Virus record (IMG/VR): IMGVR_UViG_3300050191_000007
Span: 1-24,628 of that record
Origin: a virus
Length of the DNA stretch: 24,628 nucleotides
Direction: 5' to 3' (one strand)
Notes under the pieces: model-generated
Database searches by the model: none
What the model was told of the DNA's origin: nothing
The model's input: only the letters and a program-made list of their open reading frames with translations
Position numbers and translations under genes: made by a program
Part shown: positions 1 to 24,628 of the stretch, in pieces
Position numbering within the stretch: the stretch's first letter is position 1
How the letters are laid out: every line of letters begins with the position of its first letter

Positions 1-3000
1 CGGGTGTAGTCGCACTTAGGAAGTTGTTGTTCGGGATAGACGTGCCCGATACGCCGCCTGTGTACGGTAAGAACTCGTTCCCGTTGAATATGACTCCGCT
101 GCCGGATGTCGTTACCGGAATGCCCGGGACGAACGTGTAGTTTCCCTTAGACCCGATGTTCTGCCACCAATAGATTCCCGATCCTTCTGGGACAGTACCC
201 GCCCAACTGATCTCGTTAGGGAAGGGGTTGATGTTGAACTGTGGCGGGGGTGTCGATTTAGCATTGGTCGAATAAGAGGAGAAATTCGATCCCGACCAAC
301 TCAAGTCCTGACCAACAGCCACGCCAAAAATCAAATTCGGTGTAGCGGTGTTTATCCACGAGCCGCCGAATAGCAGGATCGAAAATCGATCAGAACTATC
401 GAGACTTGTCATCTCGATCTCAAGGTTGTAGCACCCGGTGTTCCCGAAAGATACCTGCGCGGGACACTGCCATACGTGACCTTCTGTGGAGGAAGTTACT
501 CTCGTGTTCTTCCCGACAAGACTCGTGATACCATAAGCTGGTGTGCCTGCGGTGCTGAGGTTTCCGCTCGTGACTGGGGCTGTACCTGATATAGACTGAC
601 CTGCGAATCCGAAAAATCCGCCAGCATTGGTGTCTAGGTTGATAGTATACGTCCAACCTGCCAACGGGGCATATATGCTGCAGATCGTAGTTATCCCGTA
701 ACCACCGCCGCCGATTCCTGAATTGTGGGGGGCGTGAGTGCTTCCCGCTCCTATGCCATCACTAAGGATGTTCAGATAGGCGTTGCCGCCCTCGTAGTAG
801 AAGTAAAGGTTGCCCGTTTGTCCATCACCGACATAAGTGGTCTGCAGGCTGTCTGGCTGCGGTTGATACGAACCACTTCCGTCCCACGTCGCATACCACA
901 GGCCGAAAGACTGCTGCTGTGATGTTGGAGCGTTGCCTTGCGTGTAACCGAAGTCTGGCCACGCACCACCGTTCCCGTCGAAGTTCGGGTTTCCGCCGCC
1001 TACGTTCGAGTTATCGAAGTAGTACGCTGTGATAGGGGTTGTAGGTGCCGGGAACACGGCGTTGAGAGGTCTGCCTGTCGTTCCGCTGTTGGGCATGCTG
1101 TGAATGAAGGGCTGCACGCCTTTGTACAGCATCTGATAGTCTCCACCATTGATGACGAAGTCATCTTCGTAGTAGTGGGTGTTCGGCTGCCATGTAAGTG
1201 ACGCAGATGTCTGAATGTGAGTCCACTGCGACTGTCCACGAGGAACAGGACTCGCCGGATATACGTCAGGTTGGTGCGGGCCGCCCTGCGGCAACAGCCA
1301 AAGGTATCCTGCATCGGCAAACGCCCCTGAATTTATAGGGAACCCTACAGACGTGGCGCACTGGCCTGTGATGTAGCACGCAGCCCCCGGGCCGGGAGTA
1401 TTGCTGCGAGCCGTCACCGTAAATGCTAGACTCGTGGCGAGCGTCAACTGTTGCTGGTTACAGACCGTAGCATTAACAGGATTCGATGCGACCCGCAGAC
1501 GGCTAACCTGAAACACGTCTCCCACGGATATTCCAGCGAACGCTCGTGACTCGCAACCAAACTTCACTAAACCCGGTGTTACCGGAAGGAAATCAACGGT
1601 GTATATGTCGTACTTTACTGCGGGTACGGTCGCCCCTGTGGGGAGAGCACCGCCCGGGGGATTGAATCCGGCAGTAGTGACCATCCACAGTTCTCCGTCA
1701 GTGGATTGTGCGATACTCGCGGGAGCGTAGTAAGTTCCCGGTTCCCAGTTTCCCGCCGCCGCACCGAAAGTCGTAATGAGCCCGGGGGTTGACAAACTTA
1801 TGCTCGGGGCTGCAATCCCCCAATTCTCTACAGTCTCCCCACGGTTGACCCAGATGGCCTGCCCGTCGAAGGTGATGCTGCCACTGAAATTGTCCGATGC
1901 GCTCGGAACTTGCAGACCCCACGATGGTGTTGACGCACCGAACAGAAGGGTGTTGTTGACGGTATCTACTCCACCGTTCTCAATCTGCAAAGTGGCAAAG
2001 TTGGGATAAGTCGTATCATTAACCGGAGTCGAAAGGAGGTTTGGCCAGTCTATCGTAGCCGTAATCGTGTACGGGCCTGACAACGGCCAAGTAGTTAAGG
2101 TCGTGATAGTCATGCCCTGCAAGAACCCGAGCCAGTTAGGTACCGATTGGTTTGAACCGAACTGTCCCGTCACAGGATCATTATCGCTACTCCAAATCAT
2201 GTACTGTGTCCCGATTGGAATCGGGGCGGTGGCCGGAATCGTCGTGGGGTTGAACGGGGGCAGATTAGTCGTGAGAGTCAGGATATTATCCTTGACTTCG
2301 ACGTTCGTTATTACGATGTTCGACTGGGTAAGAGTCGTGCGCTGATCCGTCGTCTGTACGATGGCCCCGATGATTTGTTCGATGTTGCTGTTCGGGTCAA
2401 TGTAGTACGTGGACATGAACGGGTACGTGTTGAGCGGGAGGGTCGCACCGTTGTTGGATGCGTTGCGGACAAAGAGCGACTGTAGCCATTTCTTGTTGTC
2501 TACTCCGTTGCCAAAGTACCACTCGTTGCCAACCTGTGTGCCGTAAGACTGGCCCGCGCCTGCGGAACTACTTCTCCATATGGCCGGACCTGAATTAAGA
2601 TCGCCTACCTGCGTCTGGAATGGAATAGGGCTGCCCGGGCCTGTGATTGCGAACAGAGCGGCTTCTCCGGGTTCATACCCATACCCGCTCGCTGCCGAAC
2701 CCTCGCTAATCATGAGGTCGATCTGCTCGTCTACGAATCCAAAGACGTCGGGCAGGGCCTTGCTGATGCGGAAATCGTCGAACGACAGGATGTTCTGCCA
2801 CTCGTTCTTGGTGTCGTAAATCGGGTTGCCCGGGCGGCGACCCAGAGTCAGTTTATTCGTGACTTCTAGGTTTGAACCGTCAATCAGCGTGTCGCCCGCT
2901 GGCCCGATGAATCGCTCGTTGTATCGGGTCGTAGCATCCCGCAAGGGAGATCGATTTGTATTGATACCCGAGAAGAACCGACCTGTGTAGATCGGAGCGG

Positions 3001-3052
3001 CTTTAGTCTGCTTGCCCGGGTTGGCTCCGTTTGCTTGAAGGGCGTTCGCCAT
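1..3052 (-). CDS. Large tail structural protein, C-terminus outside window
   Basis: The minus-strand frame is open from ATG 3052 (SD AAGAAAGG, TTCTCA) to the left edge: 1017 complete codons and one extra base, with no stop. The N-terminus is conserved-looking: APIYTGRFFSGINTNRSPLR, then DTLIDGSNLEVTNKLTLGRR and PGNPIYDTKNEW. The rest is beta-rich, with many Trp, Asn, Gly and Thr residues, such as ITFDGQAIWVNRG and a Gly-rich GIGGGGYG near 800. A tail nozzle/hub or large tail-tip protein (functionally like P22 gp10/T7 gp12) would fit its place after connector genes, but I base this on position and character, not on a confirmed family. Confidence 0.72.
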   Translation of the reverse strand, partial: MANALQANGANPGKQTKAAPIYTGRFFSGINTNRSPLRDATTRYNERFIGPAGDTLIDGSNLEVTNKLTLGRRPGNPIYDTKNEWQNILSFDDFRISKALPDVFGFVDEQIDLMISEGSAASGYGYEPGEAALFAITGPGSPIPFQTQVGDLNSGPAIWRSSSAGAGQSYGTQVGNEWYFGNGVDNKKWLQSLFVRNASNNGATLPLNTYPFMSTYYIDPNSNIEQIIGAIVQTTDQRTTLTQSNIVITNVEVKDNILTLTTNLPPFNPTTIPATAPIPIGTQYMIWSSDNDPVTGQFGSNQSVPNWLGFLQGMTITTLTTWPLSGPYTITATIDWPNLLSTPVNDTTYPNFATLQIENGGVDTVNNTLLFGASTPSWGLQVPSASDNFSGSITFDGQAIWVNRGETVENWGIAAPSISLSTPGLITTFGAAAGNWEPGTYYAPASIAQSTDGELWMVTTAGFNPPGGALPTGATVPAVKYDIYTVDFLPVTPGLVKFGCESRAFAGISVGDVFQVSRLRVASNPVNATVCNQQQLTLATSLAFTVTARSNTPGPGAACYITGQCATSVGFPINSGAFADAGYLWLLPQGGPHQPDVYPASPVPRGQSQWTHIQTSASLTWQPNTHYYEDDFVINGGDYQMLYKGVQPFIHSMPNSGTTGRPLNAVFPAPTTPITAYYFDNSNVGGGNPNFDGNGGAWPDFGYTQGNAPTSQQQSFGLWYATWDGSGSYQPQPDSLQTTYVGDGQTGNLYFYYEGGNAYLNILSDGIGAGSTHAPHNSGIGGGGYGITTICSIYAPLAGWTYTINLDTNAGGFFGFAGQSISGTAPVTSGNLSTAGTPAYGITSLVGKNTRVTSSTEGHVWQCPAQVSFGNTGCYNLEIEMTSLDSSDRFSILLFGGSWINTATPNLIFGVAVGQDLSWSGSNFSSYSTNAKSTPPPQFNINPFPNEISWAGTVPEGSGIYWWQNIGSKGNYTFVPGIPVTTSGSGVIFNGNEFLPYTGGVSGTSIPNNNFLSATTP

Positions 3053-4437: not shown

Positions 4438-5442
4438 TTATACCTCGCGGGCTTTCATCCCTTGCTGTGCAGTCATAGTCTGACGGCCTGTGAGCATATC
4501 CCAGTTGTTCAGGAAGATGTCTCTTTCTTCTTGAGAGATGCCGTCCTGTCGGGCGAGCAGTGCTGCCTTGAACTGTGAGTTGTACATCTGGGCTCTGGGG
4601 TCATCGTTGAATGCGAGCATCCATCCGAGGAATCCGAGGTCGTAGACGCACTGAAGATAGTCTGGGAGCGGACCCCACGTCTGGTTGATGCTCGTGATGG
4701 TCGGGGGTGTGAGTGCAACGTGAATGGTGATTGGATACGCTTTGTTGGGCGACGGCATAACTCTGAATGTCACGTTGCCGTTGGCATCCTCTGACTCGGG
4801 GCTAATGAAGGTAGCCCGACCGAGTGAGGAGTTCAACGACAGGTTGTTCTTGACCGTGAGTTCCATCCAGTTCGGGGACGCCACGTTAGTTATGTCGTAC
4901 ACAGAGGAGTGCTCGATATGCGAGAACCATCCGACCGTTGATCCACCCGTCGTGTTGTATCCTGTGGGCGGTGCGATGACGTAATCTTGAGTCGTAGTAC
5001 CTGTGAAGGTGCCCGCAGTTATATCCGCAGTGAGTGCCCCTGAATTGATCTGGGCTGTGAACCCCGTGTAGTTCGGGAAGGTGCCGATCACCGACTGTAC
5101 CGAGATGAGTGATCCGTTGAGCGGTGCGAGGGTTCCCGTGAATGCCCCGACTAAAAGCAATGCACCGACGCCTAAGTTGTTGGCCCCAGTCACCGTCAGT
5201 AGACCTGTTGCAGAGACGTTGGCTGTCGAAGACGTGGCTGAGGGTGGGGTCAAAGAACAATTGAAACTAAGTTCTTCGACGTTCCACCACCAGAAGAACG
5301 GCGGGCCGAGAATAGTCTGCAGCACGATGTTAGCAGAAGTCAAAGCGGGTTCCAGCGAGTTTCCAATCACGGGGTTGTGATTGAAGTTCAACCGCTTTGC
5401 CCAGTTGATTGAGTCTGCGATGGTACGGTTTGACAATGCCAT
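4438..5442 (-). CDS. Structural/connector-type protein B
   Basis: 334 residues. Contains FFWWWNVEELSFNC near 50, a Thr/Gly-rich beta domain (about 70-150, with SATGLLTVTGANNLG) and a helical C-terminus with LPDYLQCVYDLGFLGWMLAF, then DDPRAQMYNSQFKAALLARQ and RDIFLNNW. The C-terminus is related to the 368-aa protein. It starts 3 bases after the membrane-protein stop; SD AAAGGAC. A place at the head-tail junction or tail is inferred from the gene order. Confidence 0.68.
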   Translation of the reverse strand: MALSNRTIADSINWAKRLNFNHNPVIGNSLEPALTSANIVLQTILGPPFFWWWNVEELSFNCSLTPPSATSSTANVSATGLLTVTGANNLGVGALLLVGAFTGTLAPLNGSLISVQSVIGTFPNYTGFTAQINSGALTADITAGTFTGTTTQDYVIAPPTGYNTTGGSTVGWFSHIEHSSVYDITNVASPNWMELTVKNNLSLNSSLGRATFISPESEDANGNVTFRVMPSPNKAYPITIHVALTPPTITSINQTWGPLPDYLQCVYDLGFLGWMLAFNDDPRAQMYNSQFKAALLARQDGISQEERDIFLNNWDMLTGRQTMTAQQGMKAREV

Positions 5443-8659: not shown

Positions 8660-8935
8660 CTACAGTTGGCCACCAGTAGTTCCGCCGTCACCTGTCTCGG
8701 GTAATCCACCCGATTCGGGCTCGACTTCCGCGTCAAACTCTCCGTTGCAGTAGGCCTTGAACGTATCATCGTTCTCTGCGGCTGCTGCAATCTGACTTCT
8801 TAAACTCTCGTTCGTACGCCGAAGCGTACGGTTGACCACACGGAGCGTAGAGTTCGTCTCGCGCAACCGTGTTACTTCTTCTTGCAGAATGTCATTGCCC
8901 TCTTTGAGAGCAGAAACCACTAGCGTATCCTCCAT
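8660..8935 (-). CDS. Coiled-coil protein with acidic Gly-rich tail
   Basis: 91 residues. Residues 8-55 form a heptad-type coiled coil (ILQEEVTRLRETNSTLRVVN, then RTLRRTNESLRSQIAAAA), followed by an acidic, Gly/Pro/Thr-rich tail. There is no membrane segment. The start (GAGGAGGGTGT before ATGGAGG) shares its initiation sequence with two other genes in this window. Probably a small virion or assembly component; function unknown. Confidence 0.7.
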   Translation of the reverse strand: MEDTLVVSALKEGNDILQEEVTRLRETNSTLRVVNRTLRRTNESLRSQIAAAAENDDTFKAYCNGEFDAEVEPESGGLPETGDGGTTGGQL

Positions 8936-9114: not shown

Positions 9115-9199
9115 ACCGTTCCTCTTTCGGTTTCCACTCTTCGGTCACCTGAGCAATGTTGAAGTTCTGCCCGTGCTTGCGTTCCGCTGAGTTCGACAT
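8957..9199 (-). CDS. Hypothetical hydrophilic protein, overlaps next gene
   Basis: 80 residues. ATG at 9199 has a strong SD (AGGAGGGATT). The first 30 residues (MSNSAERKHGQNFNIAQVTE...) look like a genuine protein start. From about residue 29 on, the frame overlaps a better-looking frame shifted by +1 (9114-8953), and the C-terminal half is low-complexity and looks like a shadow. Either both are translated or a +1 shift joins them; see findings. Confidence 0.5.
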   Translation of the reverse strand: MSNSAERKHGQNFNIAQVTEEWKPKEERYAKGLRGDQGQVPNTQRQEDRKDDVPEERKEARGNDLELNPRGHGADGGAWS

Positions 9200-9606
9200 A
9201 ATCCCTCCTGATGCTTCTCCAAGTATTCCGCTGCGAACCGGGCGTTATCCACACTTTCGAGTAGATGTCCTAAGGCAAGGTTGCAACGGTGATGAACAAA
9301 ATCACGGAGTTGTTTAGTCTTGTGATTATGGTCGAGTGCGGGACTGGTTGCCCGCTGAGAGAAGTCGAATGGCTTATGACACATGCCACACAAATTATTC
9401 TGGGAAGCTAGTTTAGCCTCGTACCGTTCTCGTGTTAGCCCGTAGCGGTACTTATAAACCCGCCCCACGGCCAACCAAGATTGTCTTCTAGTCCATTCTG
9501 GTGAAGCATTATCTCGTTGTCGTTGGGTACAGGAGCGTTCCCGTTCCCGACATTCATCTAGATGTTCTGCTCGGTACTTCGCCTGTCGTTGTGCGTTTGT
9601 TTGCAT
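9145..9606 (-). CDS. Free-standing Endonuclease VII-like HNH endonuclease
   Basis: 153 residues from ATG 9606 (SD TGGAGAATAAAA). The N-terminus (MQTNAQRQAKYRAEH) resembles the intron-encoded endonuclease. The core is CGMC (zinc pair), ALDHNHKTKQLRDF (catalytic HNH/His-Me strand) and HHRCNLALGHLLES, again with HxxC in the second zinc pair. It would make double-strand cuts that promote its own transfer. Flanking genes are intact and no splice pairing was found, so it is not in an intron. The natural end seems to be near EYLEKHQEG; the reading frame runs 55 bases into the next gene. Confidence 0.82.
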   Translation of the reverse strand: MQTNAQRQAKYRAEHLDECRERERSCTQRQRDNASPEWTRRQSWLAVGRVYKYRYGLTRERYEAKLASQNNLCGMCHKPFDFSQRATSPALDHNHKTKQLRDFVHHRCNLALGHLLESVDNARFAAEYLEKHQEGLCRTQRNASTGRTSTLLR

Positions 9607-9629
9607 TTTTATTCTCCAGTAAAGAATTT

Positions 9630-9654
9630 GGGGTGGCGTTACTGGCACCACCCC
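9630..9654 (-). terminator. Hairpin terminator before the free endonuclease gene
   Basis: On the minus strand GGGGTGGTG-CCAGTAA-CGCCACCCC forms a 9-bp stem (one G.U pair), followed by AAATTCTTT. The T-run is short and interrupted, so it may be a weak terminator or a stabilising hairpin. Confidence 0.5.
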
Positions 9655-9659
9655 TTCTC

Positions 9660-9681
9660 GTGGGTAATTAATCCAGAGATT
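9660..9681 (-). repeat. Copy B of the element shared with 22318-22342
   Basis: Shares GTGGGTAATTA, TCCA and AGAGATT (plus strand) with copy A, and lies in the non-coding leader between the DUF3494 gene stop and the free-standing endonuclease gene. Confidence 0.45.
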
Positions 9682-9706
9682 ATTGTGGGTGTTAAATCCT
9701 TTAGAA

Positions 9707-11017
9707 TTAGGAGGTTCCACCCGTCACGGTGACAATAAGTTGGGCATCGATTAAATCGATGTAACTTTCGTCCATCACGGTATTCACGTCTACCAGACTC
9801 TGGCCTTCGGTATTTCCGAAGGTAGGAATCTGGAAGTCGATGATGACCTGTCCGGGGAATCTTCCTCGAACAGTCCACGGATTAGCGTCATCGTCATCGA
9901 CAGTGGCCGAAGCCATATCGAGTGCGAATCCCGCATAAGCCTTCGCGCCGAGCACGTTCGCTCCACCGAACGGATTCGGTCTGTACCAAGAAGGGAGCAA
10001 CTCGTATCCGTATCCCTGCGATGTTCCCAGCGGAGCGGCAGCCTTCACGATTGCATTGCAACCGTAGGGGCTGACACCGTAAGGTACGCCGCTTGGAACC
10101 AAGGCTAGGATCGGAGACGTAATGAGTTCCGTTGTGGACATAGTAACCGTGGCGGTTGAAGCCAAGGCCCGTCCTTGGAGGTTTCCACCACCAAGGGTGA
10201 CGGAAGCCAACGCCATGATTGTTCCAACCATGTTCGACTGAATCCCGTTCCAAACTGTGGTTGCCGAAGACCCAACAACCCAGTAGACGTTACCCGCCTG
10301 TGCGCCATTCAGCAGGACGACTTGTGCCCCGCTTTCCAGCGTAAGTGTCGAAGACGCCTTGAATACGAACACCGCTTGGGGGTTTCCCTGAGCGTCAAGG
10401 TAGATCGTGGTCGGGATGTCTAAGGCCCCACCACTGTAGTTGCCTGCCTTGTACGTGTTCGCGGTCAAGTTGCCGTTGACGCTCATGTTGTCGCTACCCA
10501 GAGCGGTGAACGACAATCCGCTGTAGTATGCGATAGCGGCAGTCAAATCAGTCTGAGCCTGCAACGCCGCCGCGTCTGTGATGTGCTGCACGTTCGGGGG
10601 AACCACGTAATCGGGCGGGAAACTCGATATGGCAGTCCCGGGGTAGAGACCCACGTCTCCACCTGTGATTACGGAGCCCGCACCCGCACTACCAACGATG
10701 GATGAGTGGGCGAGGATAGCGAAATTCGCTGCCGTGCCGAGATGGGTCGCCTGAGGGGTAAGGACAATGCCGCCGCCTGTCCCCGGCGGATACAGCGAAA
10801 CTGGAGCGCCCGAATCATCGACAGGAAGTGCGGTGACCTGCACAAAACCGCCGATGGGGACACTCACCTTAAACTGTGATACGCCTCTCGTGCCCGGGAC
10901 AAAGGGGACGATAGGCAGAACTCCAAGACCCGTAAGCACCACGTTCGTAGCGATTCCAAGTCCGGTAGTCTGCTTCGGGTCATTCGCTGTAGGATCGTAC
11001 GGATCGAAGGAAGACAT
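9707..11017 (-). CDS. Structural protein carrying a DUF3494 (ice-binding-like) domain
   Basis: 436 residues in three parts. Residues 1-90 and about 300-436 resemble the two ends of the preceding 204-aa gene (TTGLGI start; DAQLIVTV near the end). Between them, about 93-300, lies a complete DUF3494/ice-binding-like beta-solenoid: LGTAANFAILAHSS, GGDVGLYPGTAISSFPP, YKAGNYSGG, LDAQGNPQAVFVFKASSTL, VVLLNGAQAGNVYWVVGSSA, and NMVGTIMALASVTLGGGNLQ-GRALA. Such domains bind ice in some bacteria and act in adhesion or biofilms in others. On a virion it could be a surface adhesin or decoration. The SD is weak (GAGAAT before ATG). Confidence 0.8.
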   Translation of the reverse strand: MSSFDPYDPTANDPKQTTGLGIATNVVLTGLGVLPIVPFVPGTRGVSQFKVSVPIGGFVQVTALPVDDSGAPVSLYPPGTGGGIVLTPQATHLGTAANFAILAHSSIVGSAGAGSVITGGDVGLYPGTAISSFPPDYVVPPNVQHITDAAALQAQTDLTAAIAYYSGLSFTALGSDNMSVNGNLTANTYKAGNYSGGALDIPTTIYLDAQGNPQAVFVFKASSTLTLESGAQVVLLNGAQAGNVYWVVGSSATTVWNGIQSNMVGTIMALASVTLGGGNLQGRALASTATVTMSTTELITSPILALVPSGVPYGVSPYGCNAIVKAAAPLGTSQGYGYELLPSWYRPNPFGGANVLGAKAYAGFALDMASATVDDDDANPWTVRGRFPGQVIIDFQIPTFGNTEGQSLVDVNTVMDESYIDLIDAQLIVTVTGGTS

Positions 11018-11099: not shown

Positions 11100-11714
11100 T
11101 TAGGGGAGGACAGTCACGATGATCTGTGCGTAGATCATCATGATCGGAGTCTGGGTTGCGGGATTAGACCCGTCATTGACTCCGAGGGAATTGTCGTACA
11201 CGGGGTACTGACACTCGACGATGCACTGTCCCACCGCATTCGCAGTGATGACCACATCTGCATCGTACGTGCCGTACGAAGCGCCGAGGGTAACGACAGC
11301 GGCATTGTACTTCTTGCCCGCGATGCTACCGTTGTTCGGCTGATACCACGCAGGAGCGCCCGCCCCTGCAGGGGCGCAATACGCCTCCCACACGAAGTTG
11401 TCGTTGTAGTACTCCGATACTGGCACAGCGTTGTTCTGGACATCCACGAGGGATGCCACAACCGCTTCGGACTTCGGATCGCCGTAATCGTAGGACCCGT
11501 AGGCCCCCGTTCCGCCCGACAAACTCAGCGTCAGAGCATACTGTGCGACGGGAAAACCGCTTCCCGCCGTGGCTCCGATACCTTGCCCGTTGACGGGGTT
11601 CAGCACCGCGCCCGGGTGAACAGTGGTTCCGCCACTGGGAGACGTAATCTTCGTCCCTGCAATGTGGACATACGCCGCTACACCGAGTCCGGTCGTAGGA
11701 TTTGAACTTGGCAT
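11100..11714 (-). CDS. Structural protein, probable capsid decoration (paralogue of next gene)
   Basis: 204 residues, Gly/Val/Ala-rich and beta-type, with no membrane segment. It begins with NPTTGLGVAAYVHI and ends VGQCIVECQYPVYDN... MMIYAQIIVTVLP. Both ends resemble the next gene (TTGLGIATNVVL; PGQVIIDFQIPTFGN... IDAQLIVTV), so they are paralogues. The central part (about 120-175) looks like an immunoglobulin-type or similar beta domain (DADVVITANAVGQ). Its position just after the capsid gene fits a head decoration or head fibre protein. SD AAGAAAGG lies 7 bases before ATG. Confidence 0.7.
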   Translation of the reverse strand: MPSSNPTTGLGVAAYVHIAGTKITSPSGGTTVHPGAVLNPVNGQGIGATAGSGFPVAQYALTLSLSGGTGAYGSYDYGDPKSEAVVASLVDVQNNAVPVSEYYNDNFVWEAYCAPAGAGAPAWYQPNNGSIAGKKYNAAVVTLGASYGTYDADVVITANAVGQCIVECQYPVYDNSLGVNDGSNPATQTPIMMIYAQIIVTVLP

Positions 11715-11813: not shown

Positions 11814-12773
11814 TTAGCTGATGGCCGAAGCCGCGTCGATCTCACGGATGCGGATCGTGGTGTCCGGACCCAACGAGGTCGTAAAGTGAACGCGGTAGGA
11901 AGTCCATCCCGGGATCAACCCTTCAGGGTCGGCCACGGTCGGTGCAGCGTTCTGTACCACGTTGCACTTGATGTTCTGCCACTGTCCTTCACCGAACGTA
12001 GTGTCGTTCTGCGCTCCGAGGTTGATGGAGAAGATTCCATCCTGCCCGAAGATGTACGTTCGCAGAGCGGTCAGGCCAGTCACGCCTTGGTAGTTGGCGG
12101 TCTGGGTGACGAGGTTCGTCTGGAAGAACTTCACGCCGGAAGACGGCAGTTCAACTGTGTCTTCGAGGTCGGTGCTCACCAACTCGTCCATGCTCATCTG
12201 ACCCTGAGCGGTGTGCTTCAGGATGTCGATGGGGGAATCGTTGCTGTTGTCAGCCAGCACGTCGCCAAGGGCGAACGGGTGGATAACGCCAGCGAACATG
12301 TCCTTCATGAACGGCTTCACGGAACGGCCAGCCAGTGACTGGACGGCGTTTCGGATTTGGCTCAGTGAAAGAGCGGTGAAACTGGAGGTCGAAGCAGCCG
12401 CCAACTCGATCAGCACGCTGGAGTCGATGCTGTTCGCACCGTCTGCAGTCGCACGGACCAGAGCCGACAGGGACTCGCCCAACTGATACGACAGTTCCTT
12501 CGCCACGTTCTCGACAGTGTTGTCGATGGCGGTCGCCAAAGACAGACTGGAGAAGTTCGCGTAGTCTGCGTACTCACCGATCGTCGCGGTGGTGTTCAGG
12601 ACGTTGACGCTCAAAGACGAGCCAACGGTTCCTTCGGTGGTCTGAGTGGTCAGAGCCGCCAGCGGAACGTACATGAACATCTCGTACTGGTTACCGGAAT
12701 TCTTCGGCAAGTCCAGACGCTGTGAACAACGGACGAACGGGGTCTGCGCCTTCAAGTTCTCGCGGAACCGTTT
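11814..12773 (-). CDS. Major capsid protein, exon 2 (N4-gp56-like)
   Basis: 319 residues here, 341 with exon 1. It forms the capsid shell (HK97 fold expected). Family features are FRENLKAQTPFVRCSQ, LPKNSGNQYEMFMYVPL, TTQTTEGTVGSSLSV and a conserved ATIGEYADYANFSSLS segment, all typical of N4-gp56-type capsids. The C-terminus carries a beta-rich region (INLGAQNDTTFGEGQ, then YRVHFTTSLGPDTTIRI). No ATG or SD exists at the front: the frame runs open to a TAG in the intron, and a TTG at 12755 would lose the conserved FRENL. This is what exposes the intron. It follows the scaffold-like gene, as usual. Confidence 0.9.
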   Translation of the reverse strand, partial: KRFRENLKAQTPFVRCSQRLDLPKNSGNQYEMFMYVPLAALTTQTTEGTVGSSLSVNVLNTTATIGEYADYANFSSLSLATAIDNTVENVAKELSYQLGESLSALVRATADGANSIDSSVLIELAAASTSSFTALSLSQIRNAVQSLAGRSVKPFMKDMFAGVIHPFALGDVLADNSNDSPIDILKHTAQGQMSMDELVSTDLEDTVELPSSGVKFFQTNLVTQTANYQGVTGLTALRTYIFGQDGIFSINLGAQNDTTFGEGQWQNIKCNVVQNAAPTVADPEGLIPGWTSYRVHFTTSLGPDTTIRIREIDAASAIS

Positions 12774-12855
12774 CAGGATTGTTACGCTGCTGAAGGCTTC
12801 AGCGGGCTAGACATTTCTGCTAACCTCATACGGTTTGGTTTTCCGTATGTTCGGA

Positions 12856-13221
12856 CTATCGCATCACTTTGAGATACGCAATCACGCCCTCAAGTGGCAC
12901 GGAATGTTTCTCCATGACACCGACGACCATGTTGCAATACCAGTGAGCCAAACTACGCACTTTATTCGTTGCGTGGTCATGCTCAACTTGGCAATCCCGA
13001 TTAAAGATATCAGGGAGTGGTCTGAGACAGACGGCACAAAGCCCCTTCTGTTCATCCCACATTTTCTGCTTATCCTCAATCGTCATGTCATACTTTCTGG
13101 ACAGGTGACGAGCGAGTTCATGACGTTTTCCGCTTTCGCTTTGACGCCACTTCTTGCTATATTCCGTCATCTTGGCACGGTTAAGTTTGAGCCAAGCTTT
13201 TCGCTGTTCAGAAGTTTGCAT
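12856..13221 (-). CDS. Intron-encoded HNH homing endonuclease (Endonuclease VII-type)
   Basis: 121 residues starting MQTSEQRKAW. The N-terminal half is a basic helical DNA-binding region. The C-terminal half has the Endonuclease VII-like His-Me core: CAVC (zinc pair), VEHDHATNKVRSL (catalytic HDH) and HWYCN, where the second zinc pair is HxxC rather than the usual CxxC. The enzyme would cut intron-lacking capsid genes and so spread the intron. ATG at 13221 has SD AAGGAG; the frame extends upstream to 13266 but the SD decides the start. The TAG stop lies inside the intron P7 3' strand. It is more A+T-rich than the flanking capsid gene, as expected of a mobile gene. Confidence 0.88.
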   Translation of the reverse strand: MQTSEQRKAWLKLNRAKMTEYSKKWRQSESGKRHELARHLSRKYDMTIEDKQKMWDEQKGLCAVCLRPLPDIFNRDCQVEHDHATNKVRSLAHWYCNMVVGVMEKHSVPLEGVIAYLKVMR

Positions 13222-13226
13222 GTGTG

Positions 13227-13233
13227 TCTCCTT
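13227..13233 (-). promoter_or_regulatory. Endonuclease SD that doubles as P3 3' strand
   Basis: AAGGAGA lies 5 bases before the endonuclease ATG and is its Shine-Dalgarno sequence. It is also perfectly complementary to TCTCCTT at 13310-13316, forming P3 of the intron. When the intron folds, the SD would be buried, so folding and endonuclease translation should compete. Similar RBS occlusion is established for T4 intron endonucleases; here it is inferred from sequence. Confidence 0.7.
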
Positions 13234-13340
13234 GTTTAGTCTCTCACGGTGCCCGACTCTTGTCAAGTCTGCTTCCGCCTTGTTGCCATTTCAGGTTTCA
13301 AGTCAATTAAAGGAGATTTTGTTACGACAAACGACTATCT

Positions 13341-13406
13341 ATCGTAATACTTAACCGTGCTCTGGGGCAGGTTAGATAACTGATTGCCTGCTGGGGAGAA
13401 ACTCAT
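13341..13406 (-). CDS. Major capsid protein, exon 1 (22 codons)
   Basis: ATG at 13406 with SD GAGG 9 bases upstream, starting 21 bases after the scaffold stop. It encodes MSFSPAGNQLSNLPQSTVKY then YD, typical of the opening of N4-gp56-type capsid proteins (LPQST-KYYD). Without splicing the frame stops after one more codon (AGA TAG). The exon ends in TTACGAT, whose last 7 bases pair with GTCGTAA in the intron guide, with T.G at the junction, as required for a group I 5' splice site. Joined to exon 2 it gives ...KYYDKRFRENLKAQTPF in one frame. Confidence 0.85.
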
Positions 13407-13427: not shown

Positions 13428-14585
13428 TTAACGAGTGCGGGCCGCCCGACGGGATTCCTGCTCTTTGTAGAGTTGGTCTACCTGTCTGGCAAAAGCAGGG
13501 TCTAACATCTGCTTCTTATAATTATCGGCTGACATTCTGTCAACATCTGCTAGAGTCAGAGAACGATCACTCACGGGAGTGTTCCCGCTGGCTGAAGATA
13601 CTCGATCATTCAAGCCGGATGGTGTCTGATGTCTAGCGGTTTGTACCGACTGTGCTTCAACGCTAATCCGAGCGTCTGCGACAGCGGGAACCTTCGCTTT
13701 CGGTTCCGATTCCACGGTTGGGATGACGGCATCCACAACAGCCTGTGACGGTTGGACAACCGGGGCGGGAAGCTGCAATGCGGCAGTTCTCGCCAAGGCG
13801 ATTTCAAAATTCTCTGGAGTGGGGGCAAGGTCTCTCGCGCACATCCAATCGGTTAGTACTAGACGATTGGCTTCCACGTTGTAGAAGTTATCGCCCACGT
13901 TATCGATAAAGGCGTCGAAGCTACGAATGACTTTCTGCTCAAGCAGCAATCGCTGACTATCTTGCAGCATGTTCGTGATGACTTCGGGTCTTGCCCCGAA
14001 CGTCGCTTCGGCTAATCTGATCTTGGCGTCCTCGAACTTCGCAGGATCATTCAACTCCTGAATCAACTGGAAGCGTTCGTCTGCACTCAGTTGCTTCGGC
14101 TTAAACTCCGTGAAGTGGGTGCGAGGAGCATTCACAGGGACATCCTCTCCGGGGGTTAGCCCGAGTTTGGATTCTCGTGACAACTTACGCATCCGGCGTA
14201 AGATAAGGTTGTTCTGCTCCGTGAGCTTCGTAGTCAGTTCGTCGGGCGTCGTGTAGACGATGACTTGCTTGCCGCCGTACGACTTGCCGTTTTCGTCGGT
14301 CGGCTGCCATTCGTACCGTTTTTCGACGGGTGTGACGTCGTTTTCGACGGGGGCGAGCACCGCAGTGGACGGAACCGTCTCCACTGCCGTCTTCGGGACG
14401 GCGGGTAAATTCGTTTCGGGGTCGATGGCGACTTCACCAATCGGCTTCCCCGTCTCTGGGTCAATGATCGGGGCCGTCACGACCATAAGTGCGTTGACTT
14501 CTTCGATGAAGGTCGGGTCGCTCATACGCTTCGAGTACTCCGACGCCGACATCTTGTTCACTTCCTGTAACGTAAGTTTTGCCAT
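13428..14585 (-). CDS. Probable scaffolding protein with matching N- and C-terminal motifs
   Basis: 385 residues, polar, with Pro/Ala/Val linkers and helical segments. It lies between portal and capsid genes, where a scaffold normally is, and has the expected character (charged, helical, basic C-terminus ESRRAARTR). A 30-residue motif occurs at both ends: residues 4-33 (LTLQEVNKMSASEYSKRMSD and on) and 343-372 (LTLADVDRMSADNYKKQMLD and on), identical at 15 of 30 positions. Such a motif could be the capsid-binding or dimerising element. ATG at 14585 has a GGAGGAGG SD. A role in guiding capsid assembly is inferred from context; no protease is evident in the window. Confidence 0.65.
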   Translation of the reverse strand: MAKLTLQEVNKMSASEYSKRMSDPTFIEEVNALMVVTAPIIDPETGKPIGEVAIDPETNLPAVPKTAVETVPSTAVLAPVENDVTPVEKRYEWQPTDENGKSYGGKQVIVYTTPDELTTKLTEQNNLILRRMRKLSRESKLGLTPGEDVPVNAPRTHFTEFKPKQLSADERFQLIQELNDPAKFEDAKIRLAEATFGARPEVITNMLQDSQRLLLEQKVIRSFDAFIDNVGDNFYNVEANRLVLTDWMCARDLAPTPENFEIALARTAALQLPAPVVQPSQAVVDAVIPTVESEPKAKVPAVADARISVEAQSVQTARHQTPSGLNDRVSSASGNTPVSDRSLTLADVDRMSADNYKKQMLDPAFARQVDQLYKEQESRRAARTR

Positions 14586-15045: not shown

Positions 15046-17178
15046 TTATTCGACATTCGGCATCTGCCCTTGGATTCCCTGTTGCGACGGGGTTCCATTG
15101 ACCGTCTCCGACATTCCGCTGGCCTTAGCGGCCTCACGGGTTATGTCCCGCTTGATTCGGTTGTCAGATGCTTGATCTTCGAGTTGCTGCTTCTGGACGA
15201 ACTTCTGTTGGTCGCCTTGCTGCTTGGCCTGCATTGCACCTTGCTGCATAGCGGCCTTCGAGTTCGCATCCCGGCGCTGTTTCATCTCAGCCGTCATCGG
15301 CTTGATGATGTCGTTCTTGTTCTTCCACTCACTGGCTTCGAGCCACATGGAGATGATCGGCTTGAAGTCGATGTACTCCTGATTGATCTCTGCCAGCGAT
15401 TGCTGAATCTGTGGGTTGTCGAGAATCTGCGTGAGCATAACCATCGACTGTGCCATCGTCCGCTTCGCAGCCAACGATGAGCCCGCAAGGACTTCGTACT
15501 CGATCTGGGCGTTGTGGAACTCCTGAATGTCGAAGCCTTCTAGGAAATCCGCACCCTGATCTTTGCCGAGGATGTGCAGGATCGCTTTATCTGACATTAC
15601 TGTGAACGTCAGCATTTCGATGATGCCAAGGAACGGCTTGAAGACCTGCTCGATGAAGTTGTCTAAGGGACCATCCAGTCTTGTTGCACTGGCCCCCGCC
15701 ATTAGGTTCGCCCCAGTGGCCGACCGACCCATGCCAGCCCGTGGGCCAGCAGAGGAACCTTGGACTAACGTCTGGTCTGCACCAGACGAACTCTCCGTCG
15801 CTGTCTCGGATTCCTTCAGAGCCGCCCAGATATCGGACGGCACCTTCGGACTCTCCATCAGCTTGTAAGATTTCTCCACATCCGTCACGCTTAGAATCTT
15901 GCCGATGCCTGTGCGGATGGTTTGCGTCGGGGCGTTGTCGTCCCTATTACGCAGATAGATCGGGTTCACACCATAACTCAGTATCTTGAGAATGGCGTTG
16001 ATGCTTCCTTGGTCAACCCGCTGATTCTGGCCAACGATCAGGCCGAGACCCATACCGTAGAATGCCCGGGGGCGATTCCACCAGTTGGATGACAGGAACG
16101 GAATTTTTTTGAATTCGTTCTCGCCCGTGAAGATCACTTTTTCTTGGTTGAGAACTATGATCTTACGACCTTTGTCCCAGTACTCTAATACTTCGAGCTT
16201 GGTTCTAAATGGGTCGGGGCTTGCGTCGTTGTTAATCTCTTCGGAGTGGAACACAACTCCACGAACCTGTGTCTCCTGATCGAGTTGTCGGGTGCCCGCA
16301 CGGGGCTGGCTCTCCCAAATGGCTCTGATCTGTTTGTCAGACGGGAACTTATACCCGTCGATTGCAAGGCCGTTCTCGCCGTCGTCTTTCGCGCCGACGA
16401 TAGACTTCTTGAGTTCGATGAACTGATACCAGTCCATGTACCGCACGTCGATAACCCAGCCTGCTTCTCGGATGTCCGAGACTTCGCAGTGTGGATCAAC
16501 GAGCACCCTGTTCAATGGACGATGCTCAAAGAACGGTAGCGGCACGACTCTCACCGTGCGTTCGATCTTGGGTGATTCATCGGTAGCGATAGACGTTGTA
16601 GACGTACTCCCGTCGGGATTCGTAGACTCGACGTTCGTGAACGTAGCCGACCGCTTGTATGTTTCTACCTCGTTCCAGTCATATCCCCACTTGAAGATAC
16701 CTGTTCCAAGGTGCGCCATCTGCTCAAGGCCCCACTTGACGTGGTTCTTGAACTGACACTGATCGAGGATGAACGAATACAAAGCCGTCTTCGCATCCAC
16801 AGCCTTCTGACTCGTGCCCGGACGTGGCCGAAGTAACATCGGTGGGTCGTCGTAAAACAAACCCTTGTAGAGTTGCGGTACAACCGCGTTGCAAACCTTC
16901 GCAACCGTGAATCGCTGGACGTTCGGCTCAAGAACATAAGTGTTCTCGTAGACCGTCATCGGTCGTGGCGATTGGAACAACAAGTCTGCATCGCGCCACA
17001 ACAAAGTCCACTGGCGGTTTGCAATGAACGCATTCGCCATTTGGGCCGACTTACAGACCAAGGTCAGTTCTTTGTCGATGGGTAGTTGGCCCTTCGCATC
17101 GAAGTCTTTCGCCTGCAGCCCGCCGTTTGGGTCACCGTCAGGTACGACGGTAGCCGTCAGTACAGATTCATCAGCCAT
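15046..17178 (-). CDS. Portal protein
   Basis: 710 residues, close to P22-type portals (about 725). It would form the dodecameric ring at the packaging vertex, through which TerL pumps DNA and to which the tail attaches. Supporting features are its position right after terL, an N-terminal alpha/beta wing and stem region with RPLNRVLVDPHCEVSDI (about 251-267) and a segment like PFLSSNWWNRPRAFYGMGL typical of portals, and a Gln/Lys-rich helical C-terminus (about 620-710) resembling a barrel or crown. ATG at 17178 has an AAGGAAGG SD. The assignment is from layout and sequence character. Confidence 0.85.
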   Translation of the reverse strand: MADESVLTATVVPDGDPNGGLQAKDFDAKGQLPIDKELTLVCKSAQMANAFIANRQWTLLWRDADLLFQSPRPMTVYENTYVLEPNVQRFTVAKVCNAVVPQLYKGLFYDDPPMLLRPRPGTSQKAVDAKTALYSFILDQCQFKNHVKWGLEQMAHLGTGIFKWGYDWNEVETYKRSATFTNVESTNPDGSTSTTSIATDESPKIERTVRVVPLPFFEHRPLNRVLVDPHCEVSDIREAGWVIDVRYMDWYQFIELKKSIVGAKDDGENGLAIDGYKFPSDKQIRAIWESQPRAGTRQLDQETQVRGVVFHSEEINNDASPDPFRTKLEVLEYWDKGRKIIVLNQEKVIFTGENEFKKIPFLSSNWWNRPRAFYGMGLGLIVGQNQRVDQGSINAILKILSYGVNPIYLRNRDDNAPTQTIRTGIGKILSVTDVEKSYKLMESPKVPSDIWAALKESETATESSSGADQTLVQGSSAGPRAGMGRSATGANLMAGASATRLDGPLDNFIEQVFKPFLGIIEMLTFTVMSDKAILHILGKDQGADFLEGFDIQEFHNAQIEYEVLAGSSLAAKRTMAQSMVMLTQILDNPQIQQSLAEINQEYIDFKPIISMWLEASEWKNKNDIIKPMTAEMKQRRDANSKAAMQQGAMQAKQQGDQQKFVQKQQLEDQASDNRIKRDITREAAKASGMSETVNGTPSQQGIQGQMPNVE

Positions 17179-17191
17179 GAGATTTCCTTCC

Positions 17192-19198
17192 TTATCCCAT
17201 CAGGTCTGCGAGGGGGTCGCCTGCATCTGACCCTAGCCCGAATCCTGTAGGTAAAGGTTCGCTATCAGCGGAGTCCGGAAAACTCGAAGCCAATGCCGCC
17301 ATGTTGGCGGGATTCTGAACCAGCCGTTCAAATACTTGTCGGTACTCTGCTTGCTGCTTCGGATTGAAGTACACATCCTGAGCCGCAGATACCTTCGCGT
17401 CGTTCGCGGCGTATGCCGAGAACTGGTTGATGAGGATCGCCAGTACATCCACGATGTCATCGTGCGTTGCCGCAGCGGTACCGAACTTAGACAGTTCGTC
17501 ATAAAGTTGATCGAGATTAGGACAGGTGTTGAGGAATAGCAAGTTCCCCAGACCTAGTGCATTGAGCACTGGCCCCGCCTTCTCAGTCTTCGACTTGGTC
17601 TTCTTGCCCTGACCAAGTGAAACCCATTCGATAGGAACACGGACTTTCAACTTGTCCATCTCCCTATAGGCCTCGCGGCCCATCCACTTCACACCAACTG
17701 ACTCTTCGATACAGATGCGCCGAGGTTTCCATTGGAGGGCCGTCGCCGCAATCATCGCTGGCAGTTCAAACTCGTTGTAGCGGTCACGCTTCAGGTCGAT
17801 GAGGAAGAACCTCCCGCCTAGAATCATGGCCGTCGCTATGACTGTGTAATCGGCCCACGACTTAGTCGAATAGGCCGTGTCCACACAGGTGACAATCATT
17901 CCCGTGGCTACCGTCGGCATCTGTGCCGCTGGAATTGTACGTCGTACCAACAACTCCCGTGGGAACTTGATGACGTGTAACTGAGTCGGATCGTTGAGAT
18001 ACTTAATTGCAAAGTACTCATCGGTCTTCTTCTTGTGATAGAGAAACTTGTACGTTAGCGAGTGCTCATTGTCCGGTACATTGAACCAGTAGTCGTAGTC
18101 ACTCTCGGACATCTCCGCTTCTATCAAGCCGAGGGCCTTCGCTGTGGGATTCTGCCACCACGCCGCACGAATGTAAATTTTAATCGGGAACTGCTCGGAC
18201 GACCCGCCCGCCTCTAAGTGTTTCTTGAGGTTGATGATGTCCTGCCCGTATGTGTCCTGTGTGTCGTACCACGTTCCGATCTTGTCATAGAATCCGAACG
18301 GGTGCATCATGGCTTGGTTGATACTGACCTGTTTGTTGATGTTGTGAATACGGTCAGCCGTCTGTGAGTTCTCGTTCGTCACGACGTCGTCCAACTTCAG
18401 AATGCAATAATGCCATCCAGCCAAGTTCTGCTCAATCGATGCCGCCTTGACCGTGCATTCCTTCTCGCTGGCGAACACCGCCGGGGTCTGGTACTCATAC
18501 CCTTTTCCATCGTCCTTCGGTATGCAATGCTCGGGGAAGAGAACTTGGAACATGCTCTCCGTGCCGTCGGGCATATACCGTGGCTTGAGGCTAATCTTCT
18601 TGATGAACAGCCCGGGAGTCCCGCCCTCGTCAAGAGTGAAGTGACCCTTGATCTCGCCTACAAAGTCTTTCGCCAAGTCGAGCACACCCGTGAGCACGAG
18701 GATCGTGACCTCGGGGTGTACGATGACCCACTGCACGCAGTCGGCCATGTTCATTGAAGACTTGAACCCGCCGCGAGGTACGAGCAGCAATCTATCCTTC
18801 TGCTCGATGTAGTTCTCTTTCGCCGCGAAATCTTTGAACATCTTCTTGGTCGGGTCTTTCCGTACGAAGAAATCGTTGCATATCTCCTCGTGCGTGTTGT
18901 GCGTTAGACCGTCAGTCCACATGTACTCGTGGTCAGTCATGTCCTTGTATTTCTCAAGGAGTTTGCACAGCGCAAACAAATTTGTCTGTGCTAGGAAGCG
19001 GAATCGCTGGATGTCTTCCAGTTTCTTGATCCCGTAGATAGAACCCACGGAGACCACTTTGGTTCGTTGATCTTGAGTGAGTCTGTCGAAACTCGTTTTC
19101 GCCCGCTCGTTGAACTCAGCCTCACCCATGTCACGGTGCTGGTAGTTCTTGTCGTGCCGATGTAGATCGAACCATCCCCCTAGATTCTCCGCTATCAC
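17192..19198 (-). CDS. terL: Terminase large subunit
   Basis: 668 residues. This is the ATP-driven DNA packaging motor and headful/cleavage nuclease, acting at the portal of the prohead. The N-terminal ATPase has a Walker A at about 140-148 (VPRGGFKSS) and a Walker B strand at about 265-271 (CILKLDD), with DD where many TerLs have DE. The C-terminal RNase H-like nuclease has acidic residues in CVDTAYS (about 438-444), CIEES (about 496-500) and THDDIVD (about 578-584). Length is at the long end of the family. The start is GTG at 19198 with an AAGGGGGAG SD. It is followed by the portal gene 13 bases after the stop, the usual packaging-module order. No small-subunit gene is recognisable in the window. 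Confidence 0.93.
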   Translation of the reverse strand: MIAENLGGWFDLHRHDKNYQHRDMGEAEFNERAKTSFDRLTQDQRTKVVSVGSIYGIKKLEDIQRFRFLAQTNLFALCKLLEKYKDMTDHEYMWTDGLTHNTHEEICNDFFVRKDPTKKMFKDFAAKENYIEQKDRLLLVPRGGFKSSMNMADCVQWVIVHPEVTILVLTGVLDLAKDFVGEIKGHFTLDEGGTPGLFIKKISLKPRYMPDGTESMFQVLFPEHCIPKDDGKGYEYQTPAVFASEKECTVKAASIEQNLAGWHYCILKLDDVVTNENSQTADRIHNINKQVSINQAMMHPFGFYDKIGTWYDTQDTYGQDIINLKKHLEAGGSSEQFPIKIYIRAAWWQNPTAKALGLIEAEMSESDYDYWFNVPDNEHSLTYKFLYHKKKTDEYFAIKYLNDPTQLHVIKFPRELLVRRTIPAAQMPTVATGMIVTCVDTAYSTKSWADYTVIATAMILGGRFFLIDLKRDRYNEFELPAMIAATALQWKPRRICIEESVGVKWMGREAYREMDKLKVRVPIEWVSLGQGKKTKSKTEKAGPVLNALGLGNLLFLNTCPNLDQLYDELSKFGTAAATHDDIVDVLAILINQFSAYAANDAKVSAAQDVYFNPKQQAEYRQVFERLVQNPANMAALASSFPDSADSEPLPTGFGLGSDAGDPLADLMG

Positions 19199-22898: not shown

Positions 22899-24497
22899 TT
22901 ATTTCCGAGGATGGGTGTCGAACCAATCCTTCACCAAATCGTTCCTTAACGGACGCCTTGTCGTAATTCGACTAGGACGCCCTCGGTGTCGATCTCTCAC
23001 ATTCAGTTGACCTGCGGGTGTCACGGGTTCGTCTGTCTTACTCAGCCTGTAGGCTTCCCGCATCATCTCTTGGTTGTATACCTTCGGGGTATCCGCCAGA
23101 TGCTCCGTGATGAAACTGTTGTTCCGTCGGGGTTGACGCTTTTGATCGGTATTCCCGTATCGTTGGTCGAAGTTTAGATGAATGCCGTGTCGGCCTAACG
23201 CCCGTCCTACCCATCTGTCTTCGGCCCAATCATCTACGGGTTCCGTCAGCAGGGCAGTGATGGCCTTGTGACTTGTCCAGTATCCTGAACCGCCCGAGGC
23301 GAAATTCTTCTCGTTCCCGCCGAGTCCGATGCCGCTGTAATCGTAGTTCTCGAAACCGCTCGCCGTCAACTTATCGATGTCGATGAATGTATCGGGGAAA
23401 CACTGGAACACGAAATCGTATCCGTGGTCAATCGCCCACTTATGACTGTGCCATGACTTGAACCCGAGGTAAAGATACCCGTCGGGGCAATGCACGACAA
23501 CTTCGTCATCCTTCGGCACGTAGGTAAAGGGAGCCTGAGACTTAGTTGTCAGGGCCTTCATCTTGTGCCCCTTCGTCGCGTGATTGACAGAGGCTTCTAT
23601 TCTCTTCTCATCTTCCGCGCTCACGGGCGTGCCGTCTCCGATAAAGAACTTGTAATCGAGGTTCGGATACTTTGAAACTTCTTTCGCCCAAGTATCACGA
23701 ATCACTTGGTGGTCGCCGTTCATCGCGCCTGTGACCCACCCGCTGATCGTAATCAGCACTCGGGGGAGTTTCTCATCCTGTCGGCGGTGAACATCGTGCA
23801 TCATCGAAGGCTTGTAGCCCGCCTTGAATCCGACGTGCGTAGAAATCAAATCATTGCGGCGAGTAACGGCATCGTCGCTGTATCTCGTATCATTGTGCAG
23901 CGGGATCGAGACGTGGCAGAGGGAATTACTGATCCAGTGATCTTCCGCCCATACCTTGATCGGGGCTGTCGCCGAAACTTGGAGAGCCCTGCGGCTCAAC
24001 CAGTAGCCGCCGCCGCCCGCGACAACTGGGTGCTGGGGGCTTGAACGCCACCCGGTAAAGTCATGCTTCTCGAAACCGCTTCGCATCAACCGTTCAAGAT
24101 CGACGTAAGTATCGGTATCGCACTTGTAGACAAAATCGAATCCGTGGTCGAGCGCCCACTGGTGCATCTTCCTAACCTTGAAGACAAGGTGAAAGTAATC
24201 ATCGGGGGCAGTTAGGACAACTTCGTCATCCTTGGGGCTGTATATAGGAGGAGCGGCGTCTCCCGTCTTGCACTTCTCCGCGTAATCAATCCCTCTATTG
24301 GTGTCGTGTGCCCCTTGAACCATCGCCCGAAGCGGCGTCTCATCCTCGCCCGTCGGCGTACCATCGCCGAGGAAAAATTTATATGTAACATCACTGTACT
24401 TCGAGATGTCTTTAAGGAAGGTGTCTCTCTGTGCCTGCTCAACCCCGTTCTGGGCATCCCTCACGCAGGAAGTAATTGCTATGAGAACCTTCATCAT
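22899..24497 (-). CDS. Tandem-domain GT31/Fringe-like glycosyltransferase
   Basis: About 532 residues made of two homologous halves (about 1-240 and 245-465) plus a basic C-terminal tail. Each half has the hallmarks of GT31 (Galactosyl_T/Fringe-like) enzymes: an N-terminal beta strand (KVLIAITS, RVLITISG), an R-DT motif (QRDTFLKDISKY, IRDTWAKEVSKY), KFF-GDGTP, KDDEVV, a DxD-region strand, G-GYW-S and a WAED-W helix. The first half keeps DTD (about 127-129), which would bind the metal and nucleotide sugar. In the second half this is FPD (about 367-369), so only the first half may be catalytic. Acceptor and sugar are unknown; phage DNA, virion protein or host glycan are all possible. The frame extends to a TTG at 24530, but GGAGGGG directly precedes ATGATG at 24497/24494 and the upstream gene stops there, so I place the start at 24497. 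Confidence 0.8.
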   Translation of the reverse strand: MMKVLIAITSCVRDAQNGVEQAQRDTFLKDISKYSDVTYKFFLGDGTPTGEDETPLRAMVQGAHDTNRGIDYAEKCKTGDAAPPIYSPKDDEVVLTAPDDYFHLVFKVRKMHQWALDHGFDFVYKCDTDTYVDLERLMRSGFEKHDFTGWRSSPQHPVVAGGGGYWLSRRALQVSATAPIKVWAEDHWISNSLCHVSIPLHNDTRYSDDAVTRRNDLISTHVGFKAGYKPSMMHDVHRRQDEKLPRVLITISGWVTGAMNGDHQVIRDTWAKEVSKYPNLDYKFFIGDGTPVSAEDEKRIEASVNHATKGHKMKALTTKSQAPFTYVPKDDEVVVHCPDGYLYLGFKSWHSHKWAIDHGYDFVFQCFPDTFIDIDKLTASGFENYDYSGIGLGGNEKNFASGGSGYWTSHKAITALLTEPVDDWAEDRWVGRALGRHGIHLNFDQRYGNTDQKRQPRRNNSFITEHLADTPKVYNQEMMREAYRLSKTDEPVTPAGQLNVRDRHRGRPSRITTRRPLRNDLVKDWFDTHPRK

Positions 24498-24628
24498 CCC
24501 CTCCAAGCGGTTGAGCCGTCTGTCGGACAATGTCGTCCTGTATGACGCACATACTCCTTGTCTAGCGACGCGATATTGAAATGCCTGTCAAGCATCATCT
24601 GGGAGAAGTAAGTCTCGCGCCACGCATT
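24494..24628 (-). CDS. C-terminal end of an unidentified protein (cut by window edge)
   Basis: An open frame enters from the right edge and encodes 44 residues (beginning NAWRETYFSQMMLD and ending GSTAWRG) before a TGA stop. The stop overlaps the ATG of the next gene in an ATGA arrangement, which indicates translational coupling. Only the last part of the protein is present, so function cannot be assigned. Its position directly before a glycosyltransferase gene makes a sugar-related role possible, but that is inference. The frame is real rather than chance because it continues open to the edge and is coupled to its neighbour. Confidence 0.6.
   Translation of the reverse strand, partial: NAWRETYFSQMMLDRHFNIASLDKEYVRHTGRHCPTDGSTAWRG

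Follow-up and report, generated by a model that had tools for sequence, protein, structure and literature searches.

Why would a gene among the structural genes of a tailed phage encode a domain of the ice-binding protein family, and what could such a domain do there? The question is raised by ORF 9707-11017(-) of the window, as we call the whole 24,628-nucleotide stretch of viral DNA that was analysed. This ORF starts with ATG, has no internal stop and encodes a 436-aa protein to which no PHROGs family is assigned.

A DUF3494 domain with the ice-binding fold

The Pfam-A profile PF11999 (Ice_binding, DUF3494) matches residues 101-297 of the protein with an E-value of 5.3e-35 and a score of 121 bits against a cut-off of 28.7, covering positions 1-206 of the 208 of the profile. 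A phmmer search of PDB sequences retrieved 24 chains, mostly of ice-binding or antifreeze proteins, the best being 6eio (E 3.5e-28). The AlphaFold model of the 436-aa protein was built from an 84-sequence alignment, used instead of an input of five close homologues alone that gave a pLDDT of 31. Its pLDDT is above 90 across most of residues 92-300, which adopt the discontinuous beta-solenoid, with solenoid strands and a long alpha-helix at residues 149-166. The modelled domain aligns to AnpIBP structures with a Z-score of 32.9 in VIA-align and superposes on 7bwy with an rmsd of 1.1 Å over 199 residues; all 25 solved DUF3494 structures among the matches listed give Z-scores of 28-33. The match of this domain to DUF3494 is far beyond chance. 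A sequence-only reading of the same DNA had recognised the DUF3494 pattern at residues ~93-300 and named a Pfam search and an AlphaFold model as checks; both agree with it, and the domain edges lie at ~92-300.

Gene block and kinship of the phage

The 24.6 kb window carries on its minus strand a tailed-phage structural block in the order terminase, portal, scaffold-like protein, major head protein, 204-aa protein, DUF3494 gene, small genes, adaptor and tail protein (Table 1). Among deposited phages, only Tunturi 3 (PP885686) has a closely related major head protein (79% identical). Its terminase, portal, major head protein, adaptor and tail protein are orthologous to those of the window and stand in identical order. 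By these genes and their arrangement, the window phage is a member of a clade of Tunturi 3-like podoviruses. Tunturi 3, whose head measures 77 nm and whose tail measures 21 nm, is a podovirus; its host, Tunturiibacter psychrotolerans, is an acidobacterium (Acidobacteriota) of Arctic tundra (PMC11924767). A portal-based scan of IMG/VR found 200 relatives of the window phage, of which 80 were kept.

Table 1. Features of the structural gene block of the window and of related contigs, with the evidence for each assignment.
Feature	Sequence	Position	Strand	Evidence
436-aa Ig-like-looking head-module protein with DUF3494 insert	window	9707..11017	-	Pfam, AlphaFold, hhalign
N-terminal flank, residues 1-91	window	10745..11017	-	homologous to N half of 11100-11714(-) product
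DUF3494 (PF11999) domain, residues ~92-300	window	10118..10744	-	Pfam, AlphaFold model, dN/dS in homologues
C-terminal flank, residues 301-436	window	9707..10117	-	homologous to C half of 11100-11714(-) product
Insert-free paralogue, 204 aa, adjoining major head protein	window	11100..11714	-	position, hhalign
Major head protein, 3' part	window	11814..12773	-	phrog_1357 E 1e-12; 79% identity to Tunturi 3 major head protein
Major head protein, 5' part	window	13342..13406	-	colinear with uninterrupted 341-aa ORF of near-identical contig L002
Putative scaffold, 385 aa	window	13428..14585	-	between portal and major head protein; Tunturi 3 orthologue
Portal protein	window	15046..17178	-	phrog_332 / phrog_156; Tunturi 3 portal E 1.5e-267
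Terminase large subunit	window	17192..19198	-	phrog_38 E 4e-40; Tunturi 3 terminase E 1.7e-182
SU10-type adaptor	window	4438..5442	-	PF24175 E 6e-7; homologues L272, L276 carry DUF3494
Giant tail protein, cut at residue 1017 by record end	window	2..3052	-	six homologues carry DUF3494 near ~1270-1620
~75-aa module carrier (Tunturi 3 gp7)	L227	7573-8511		same loop as DUF3494
~75-aa module carrier	L107	16756-17679		same loop as DUF3494
~75-aa module carrier	L112	11022-11954		same loop as DUF3494

The carrier protein and its insertion loop

The two flanks of the domain align to the two halves of the product of the neighbouring ORF 11100-11714(-), the N flank to residues ~9-104 (hhalign probability 97.5%, E 8e-12 against the family of this neighbour) and the C flank to residues ~121-201 (98.9%, E 1e-17). 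DUF3494 is therefore an insertion in a paralogue of the neighbour, which BLASTP also links directly to the C-terminal part of the 436-aa protein (E 8e-6). This confirms the earlier remark that the ends of the protein resemble the adjacent structural gene. A relative of the 204-aa protein stands beside the major head protein in nearly all clade members whose contig covers the site. For the protein in this position, a role as head fibre, decoration protein or tail fibre is conceivable. The flanks are modelled by AlphaFold with a pLDDT of ~35-60, and the profile of the carrier family gave no match to PDB sequences at E-values up to 1. A Big_2 match in the relative from L006 (E 0.014; 15.8 bits, below the 22.8-bit cut-off) and a weaker one in L018 suggest, as a lead, that the carrier is Ig-like.

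The positional counterpart of the carrier in Tunturi 3 is gp7, annotated as "tail fiber protein". Gp7 is a 312-aa protein encoded directly after the major head protein that has two copies of another module of ~75 aa and no DUF3494. In L107 and L112, similar ~75-aa modules separate the two halves of the Ig-like-looking protein. Since other modules are found there in these three proteins, the carrier loop looks like a slot for exchangeable modules. The ~75-aa repeat follows the pattern VYTGTITGG..F.G.TFTVAGF..AANNGTF.A.A.....TL.NA.G..ETH, with one or two copies per loop, and occurs also in the adaptor of L276 and in an FN3-DUF3494 protein of L066. Directly downstream of the DUF3494 gene, window positions 9145-9720 hold an HNH-like endonuclease ORF that appears free-standing by sequence reading. 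Positions 8660-8935 encode a small coiled-coil-like protein of 91 aa (ESNEILQEEVSRLRETNATLR type), which many relatives retain behind the Ig-like-looking gene.

DUF3494 copies in other predicted virion proteins

The giant tail protein is interrupted by DUF3494 in six relatives (G004, G005, G006, G007, G009 and G010). The insert is clean, ~210 aa long, and lies between LLVGP and ILNRDL in four of the six and ~15 residues further on in the other two, which in the alignment are slightly different positions in one loop. The tail proteins of five homologues (G021, G026, G030, G036 and G038) run straight through without DUF3494, and the whole records of G021, G026, G036 and G038 have no PF11999 match. 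The tail protein of Tunturi 3, unlike that of the six relatives, also has no DUF3494. Wherever a record combines a head copy with a complete tail gene, a tail copy is present as well (6/6, not phylogenetically independent). Since IMG/VR contigs are fragments, such presence and absence counts give minimum values and are not independent. For the window phage, the record ends at residue 1017 of the tail protein, before the ~1270-1620 region, so that a tail copy in this phage would lie out of view. G004 has a third DUF3494 copy in a 351-aa protein encoded downstream of the tail gene. A relocation of the domain from head to tail in L008-L010 was rejected, as whole-record searches and the fetched regions show both copies. 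In G030 (L071 4614-5804) a DUF3494 gene of the Ig-like type is found away from the head protein, just upstream of a p20491 homologue.

A wider scan for DUF3494 relatives yielded at least 220 viral stretches and extends the range of carriers. The domain is embedded in homologues of the SU10 adaptor (Table 1) and in the tail sheath protein of L274, which matches both PF11999 (E 3e-28) and the sheath family phrog_2839 (E 7e-24). In three other phage groups (L026, L028 and L029) a DUF3494 gene is surrounded by genes for terminase, portal and head proteins. That DUF3494 is present in virions is strongly suggested by the homology of its carriers to sheath, adaptor and tail proteins. The sheath gene of L274 (1-4344) belongs to a contractile-tailed phage; its product, 1447 aa in the cut frame, has DUF3494 at residues ~287-489 and more insert-like stretches. 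L300 and L301 encode DUF3494 proteins of 244 and 492 aa with lipoprotein-like N termini. Two DUF3494 domains that belong to different subclades are combined in a protein of 824-840 aa encoded by large viral contigs of up to 223 kb (L253 5440-7914, L268 5443-7956 and L280 5458-7980).

A virus-only lineage that appears to be exchanged among virion proteins

In a tree of 121 DUF3494 domains, 55 viral rows and no cellular one form a clade with support 100/97; the nearest bacterial copies, from Acidobacteria, are ~46% identical. Head, tail, adaptor and sheath copies are intermixed inside this viral clade. A single clade of head copies is rejected (p-AU 2e-61), as is one of tail copies (p-AU 1e-11), and at least five changes of insertion site are needed on the tree. 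The head proteins of G004 and G005 are 91% and 77% identical in their flanks and just 56% in DUF3494, and the tail domain of G004 is 75% identical to the head domain of G005. A dN/dS of ~0.08-0.2 in the DUF3494 of homologues denotes purifying selection. The mixed tree, the rejected site clades, the G004/G005 swap and the dN/dS values together point to a maintained module that is swapped as a unit. DUF3494 looks like a mobile module of a phage-specific lineage, spread by these comparisons across head, tail, adaptor and sheath proteins.

Putative function and candidate ligands

We favour, with a probability of roughly 0.6, the reading that the 436-aa protein belongs to the virion surface of a Tunturi 3-like podovirus as an accessory component, with DUF3494 serving as a mobile display module and multivalent adhesin. 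The Ig-like-looking neighbour of the major head protein would have been duplicated and its second copy would have acquired DUF3494 in a surface loop, so that the 436-aa protein would present the domain on the particle. In soil phages, the phage-specific DUF3494 lineage would move from one kind of virion protein to another (head, tail, adaptor and sheath). Flat Thr/Ser/Ala/Gly B faces in many copies could then provide avid attachment to an extended, ordered soil surface, either the host envelope, a matrix polymer or ice, and this attachment would raise phage retention and encounter with host cells. The sequence-only reading had proposed a surface adhesin on the virion. That idea is upheld as the best reading of the data, given the location of DUF3494 in a paralogue of a structural gene and its copies in tail protein, adaptor and sheath, parts assigned to the virion by homology. 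The spread over several virion sites, the exchange of variants at one site and the acceptance of other modules by the carrier argue, by analogy with Ig-like domains, that DUF3494 most likely acts on these phages as a multivalent adhesin. The broader proposal is put forward tentatively: the virus-only lineage would be a freely moving decoration module, exchanged among the head, neck, tail and sheath proteins of many soil phages, and by binding ice or another ordered surface it would give the particles a means of physical attachment without earlier description.

The B face of the domain bears on the nature of the ligand. The ice-binding site of AnpIBP is known by mutation, replacement of S153/T156 cutting its activity to 17% (PMC7277481). 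The B-face positions, transferred from AnpIBP through sequence alignment, are T/S/A/G at 78% in the window domain versus 42% elsewhere (random-column test 0.0007), and S250 and T253 correspond to the AnpIBP residues S153 and T156 needed for ice binding. The same face also bears V108, L270, V255, E228, D200 and P202. Since a T/S/A/G-rich face is common to the whole DUF3494 family, this composition alone proves no ligand. Ice is a possible ligand in view of the conserved B face, and polymers of the host surface or matrix are at least as likely.

True ice binding would have virions attach to ice or gain protection from freezing, the multivalent DUF3494 keeping the phage in brine veins with its hosts or limiting freeze-thaw inactivation. 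We hold this to be unlikely, in spite of the retained S250/T253 site pattern, the provenance of all 25 DUF3494 structures among the matches listed from entries titled ice-binding or antifreeze (Z up to 32.9) and the Arctic tundra origin of the cultured relative Tunturi 3 (PMC11924767). The whole record of that same Arctic phage has no PF11999 match, and IMG/VR matches of Tunturi 3 and 4 come also from soils of Indiana, Colorado and Washington (PMC11924767). Across 1,512 metagenomes from soils of every kind, PF11999 is moreover listed among the abundant Pfams (PMC11237643), and the B face of the window domain also bears the six other residues given above. Another candidate role is that of a host receptor-binding or co-receptor-binding module: DUF3494 on head and tail would recognise an acidobacterial envelope or matrix polymer and aid reversible adsorption, and its swaps would be changes of host range. 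The in-place replacement with kept flanks in G004/G005, the insertions in tail and adaptor loops and the other modules filling the same carrier loop in Tunturi 3 gp7, L107 and L112 agree with such a role. However, dN/dS is low and the B face is conserved rather than diversifying, and placement on sheath and head is unnecessary for receptor binding, so that we consider it a minority possibility, if a somewhat better one than ice.

A soluble or secreted auxiliary product that shields infected cells against freezing is very improbable; such a role has been suggested for Arctic marine viruses with ice-binding-like genes. In its favour, three viral PF11999 genes have been interpreted as auxiliary metabolic genes (PMC11515562), and the L300 and L301 proteins have lipoprotein-like N termini. 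In the Tunturi 3-like clade, in contrast, DUF3494 forms part of paralogues or homologues of structural proteins encoded within the virion gene block, and no signal peptide is visible in these proteins. The fusion of DUF3494 to virion proteins leads us to set the auxiliary role aside in favour of the display module.

Relation to known systems

Binding to mucus and to other surfaces has been associated with the promiscuous Ig-like domains of phages. They are known as accessory surface adhesins (PMC5292684, PMC13370021). T4 Hoc, T5 pb10 and the modular adhesins of gut phages (PMC13370021) likewise put accessory modules on several kinds of virion protein, and these serve surface attachment where tested. 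Unlike the Ig-like modules of T4 Hoc and T5 pb10, DUF3494 is a beta-solenoid inserted in a loop, and its carrier is itself Ig-like-looking. The window domain shares family, fold and B-face pattern (Z 28-33) with type 1 ice-binding proteins (AnpIBP, 7bwx/7bwy; EfcIBP, 6eio; FfIBP, 4nu2; SfIBP_1, 6bg8), from which it differs by its place within a phage structural-module protein and in a phage-only DUF3494 lineage.

The PF11999 genes of Arctic marine viruses belong to the same Pfam family and are also found in viral contigs, but were read as stand-alone genes of host cryoprotection (PMC11515562), whereas in the soil phages described here the domain is built into predicted virion proteins. No PF11999 match was obtained here in S-SKS1, a viral homologue named in that work. 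In the viral structure library BFVD the sole matches at E ≤ 0.001 are DUF3494 proteins of Hyperionvirus, a giant virus of an unrelated realm in which they are not phage structural proteins. A tblastn search with three DUF3494 queries against 50,697 deposited phage records gave no match, and no paper linking DUF3494 with phage structural proteins was found in the open-licence literature, an earlier report elsewhere being possible. Both results agree with the first impression, from the sequence alone, that no such case had been described.

If the favoured reading is true, DUF3494 is a second promiscuous virion module, structurally unrelated to the Ig-like one, recruited from an ice-binding family by phages of soil bacteria. 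Virion surface adhesion outside animals would then seem to follow a general rule. The module makes retention of soil phages near their hosts and freeze-thaw survival testable, and it offers solved homologues and simple assays. "Ice-binding auxiliary metabolic genes" called in viromes should be regarded with caution, as they may encode virion proteins.

Other features of the window

An insertion of ~568 bases (window 12774-13341) interrupts the gene for the major head protein and contains an HNH-type ORF at 12856-13266. Contig L002, more than 99% identical on both sides, does not have the insertion and keeps an intact 341-aa ORF. The insertion resembles a mobile intron; it has no match in Rfam. 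Split head genes are also found in relatives L013, L016 and L018-L021. Upstream of the structural block, window positions 22899-24530 encode a 543-aa protein with two similar halves ('LIAITSCVRDAQNG...' and 'LITISGWVTGAMNG...'), glycosyltransferase-like by eye, that is kept in this position in relatives.
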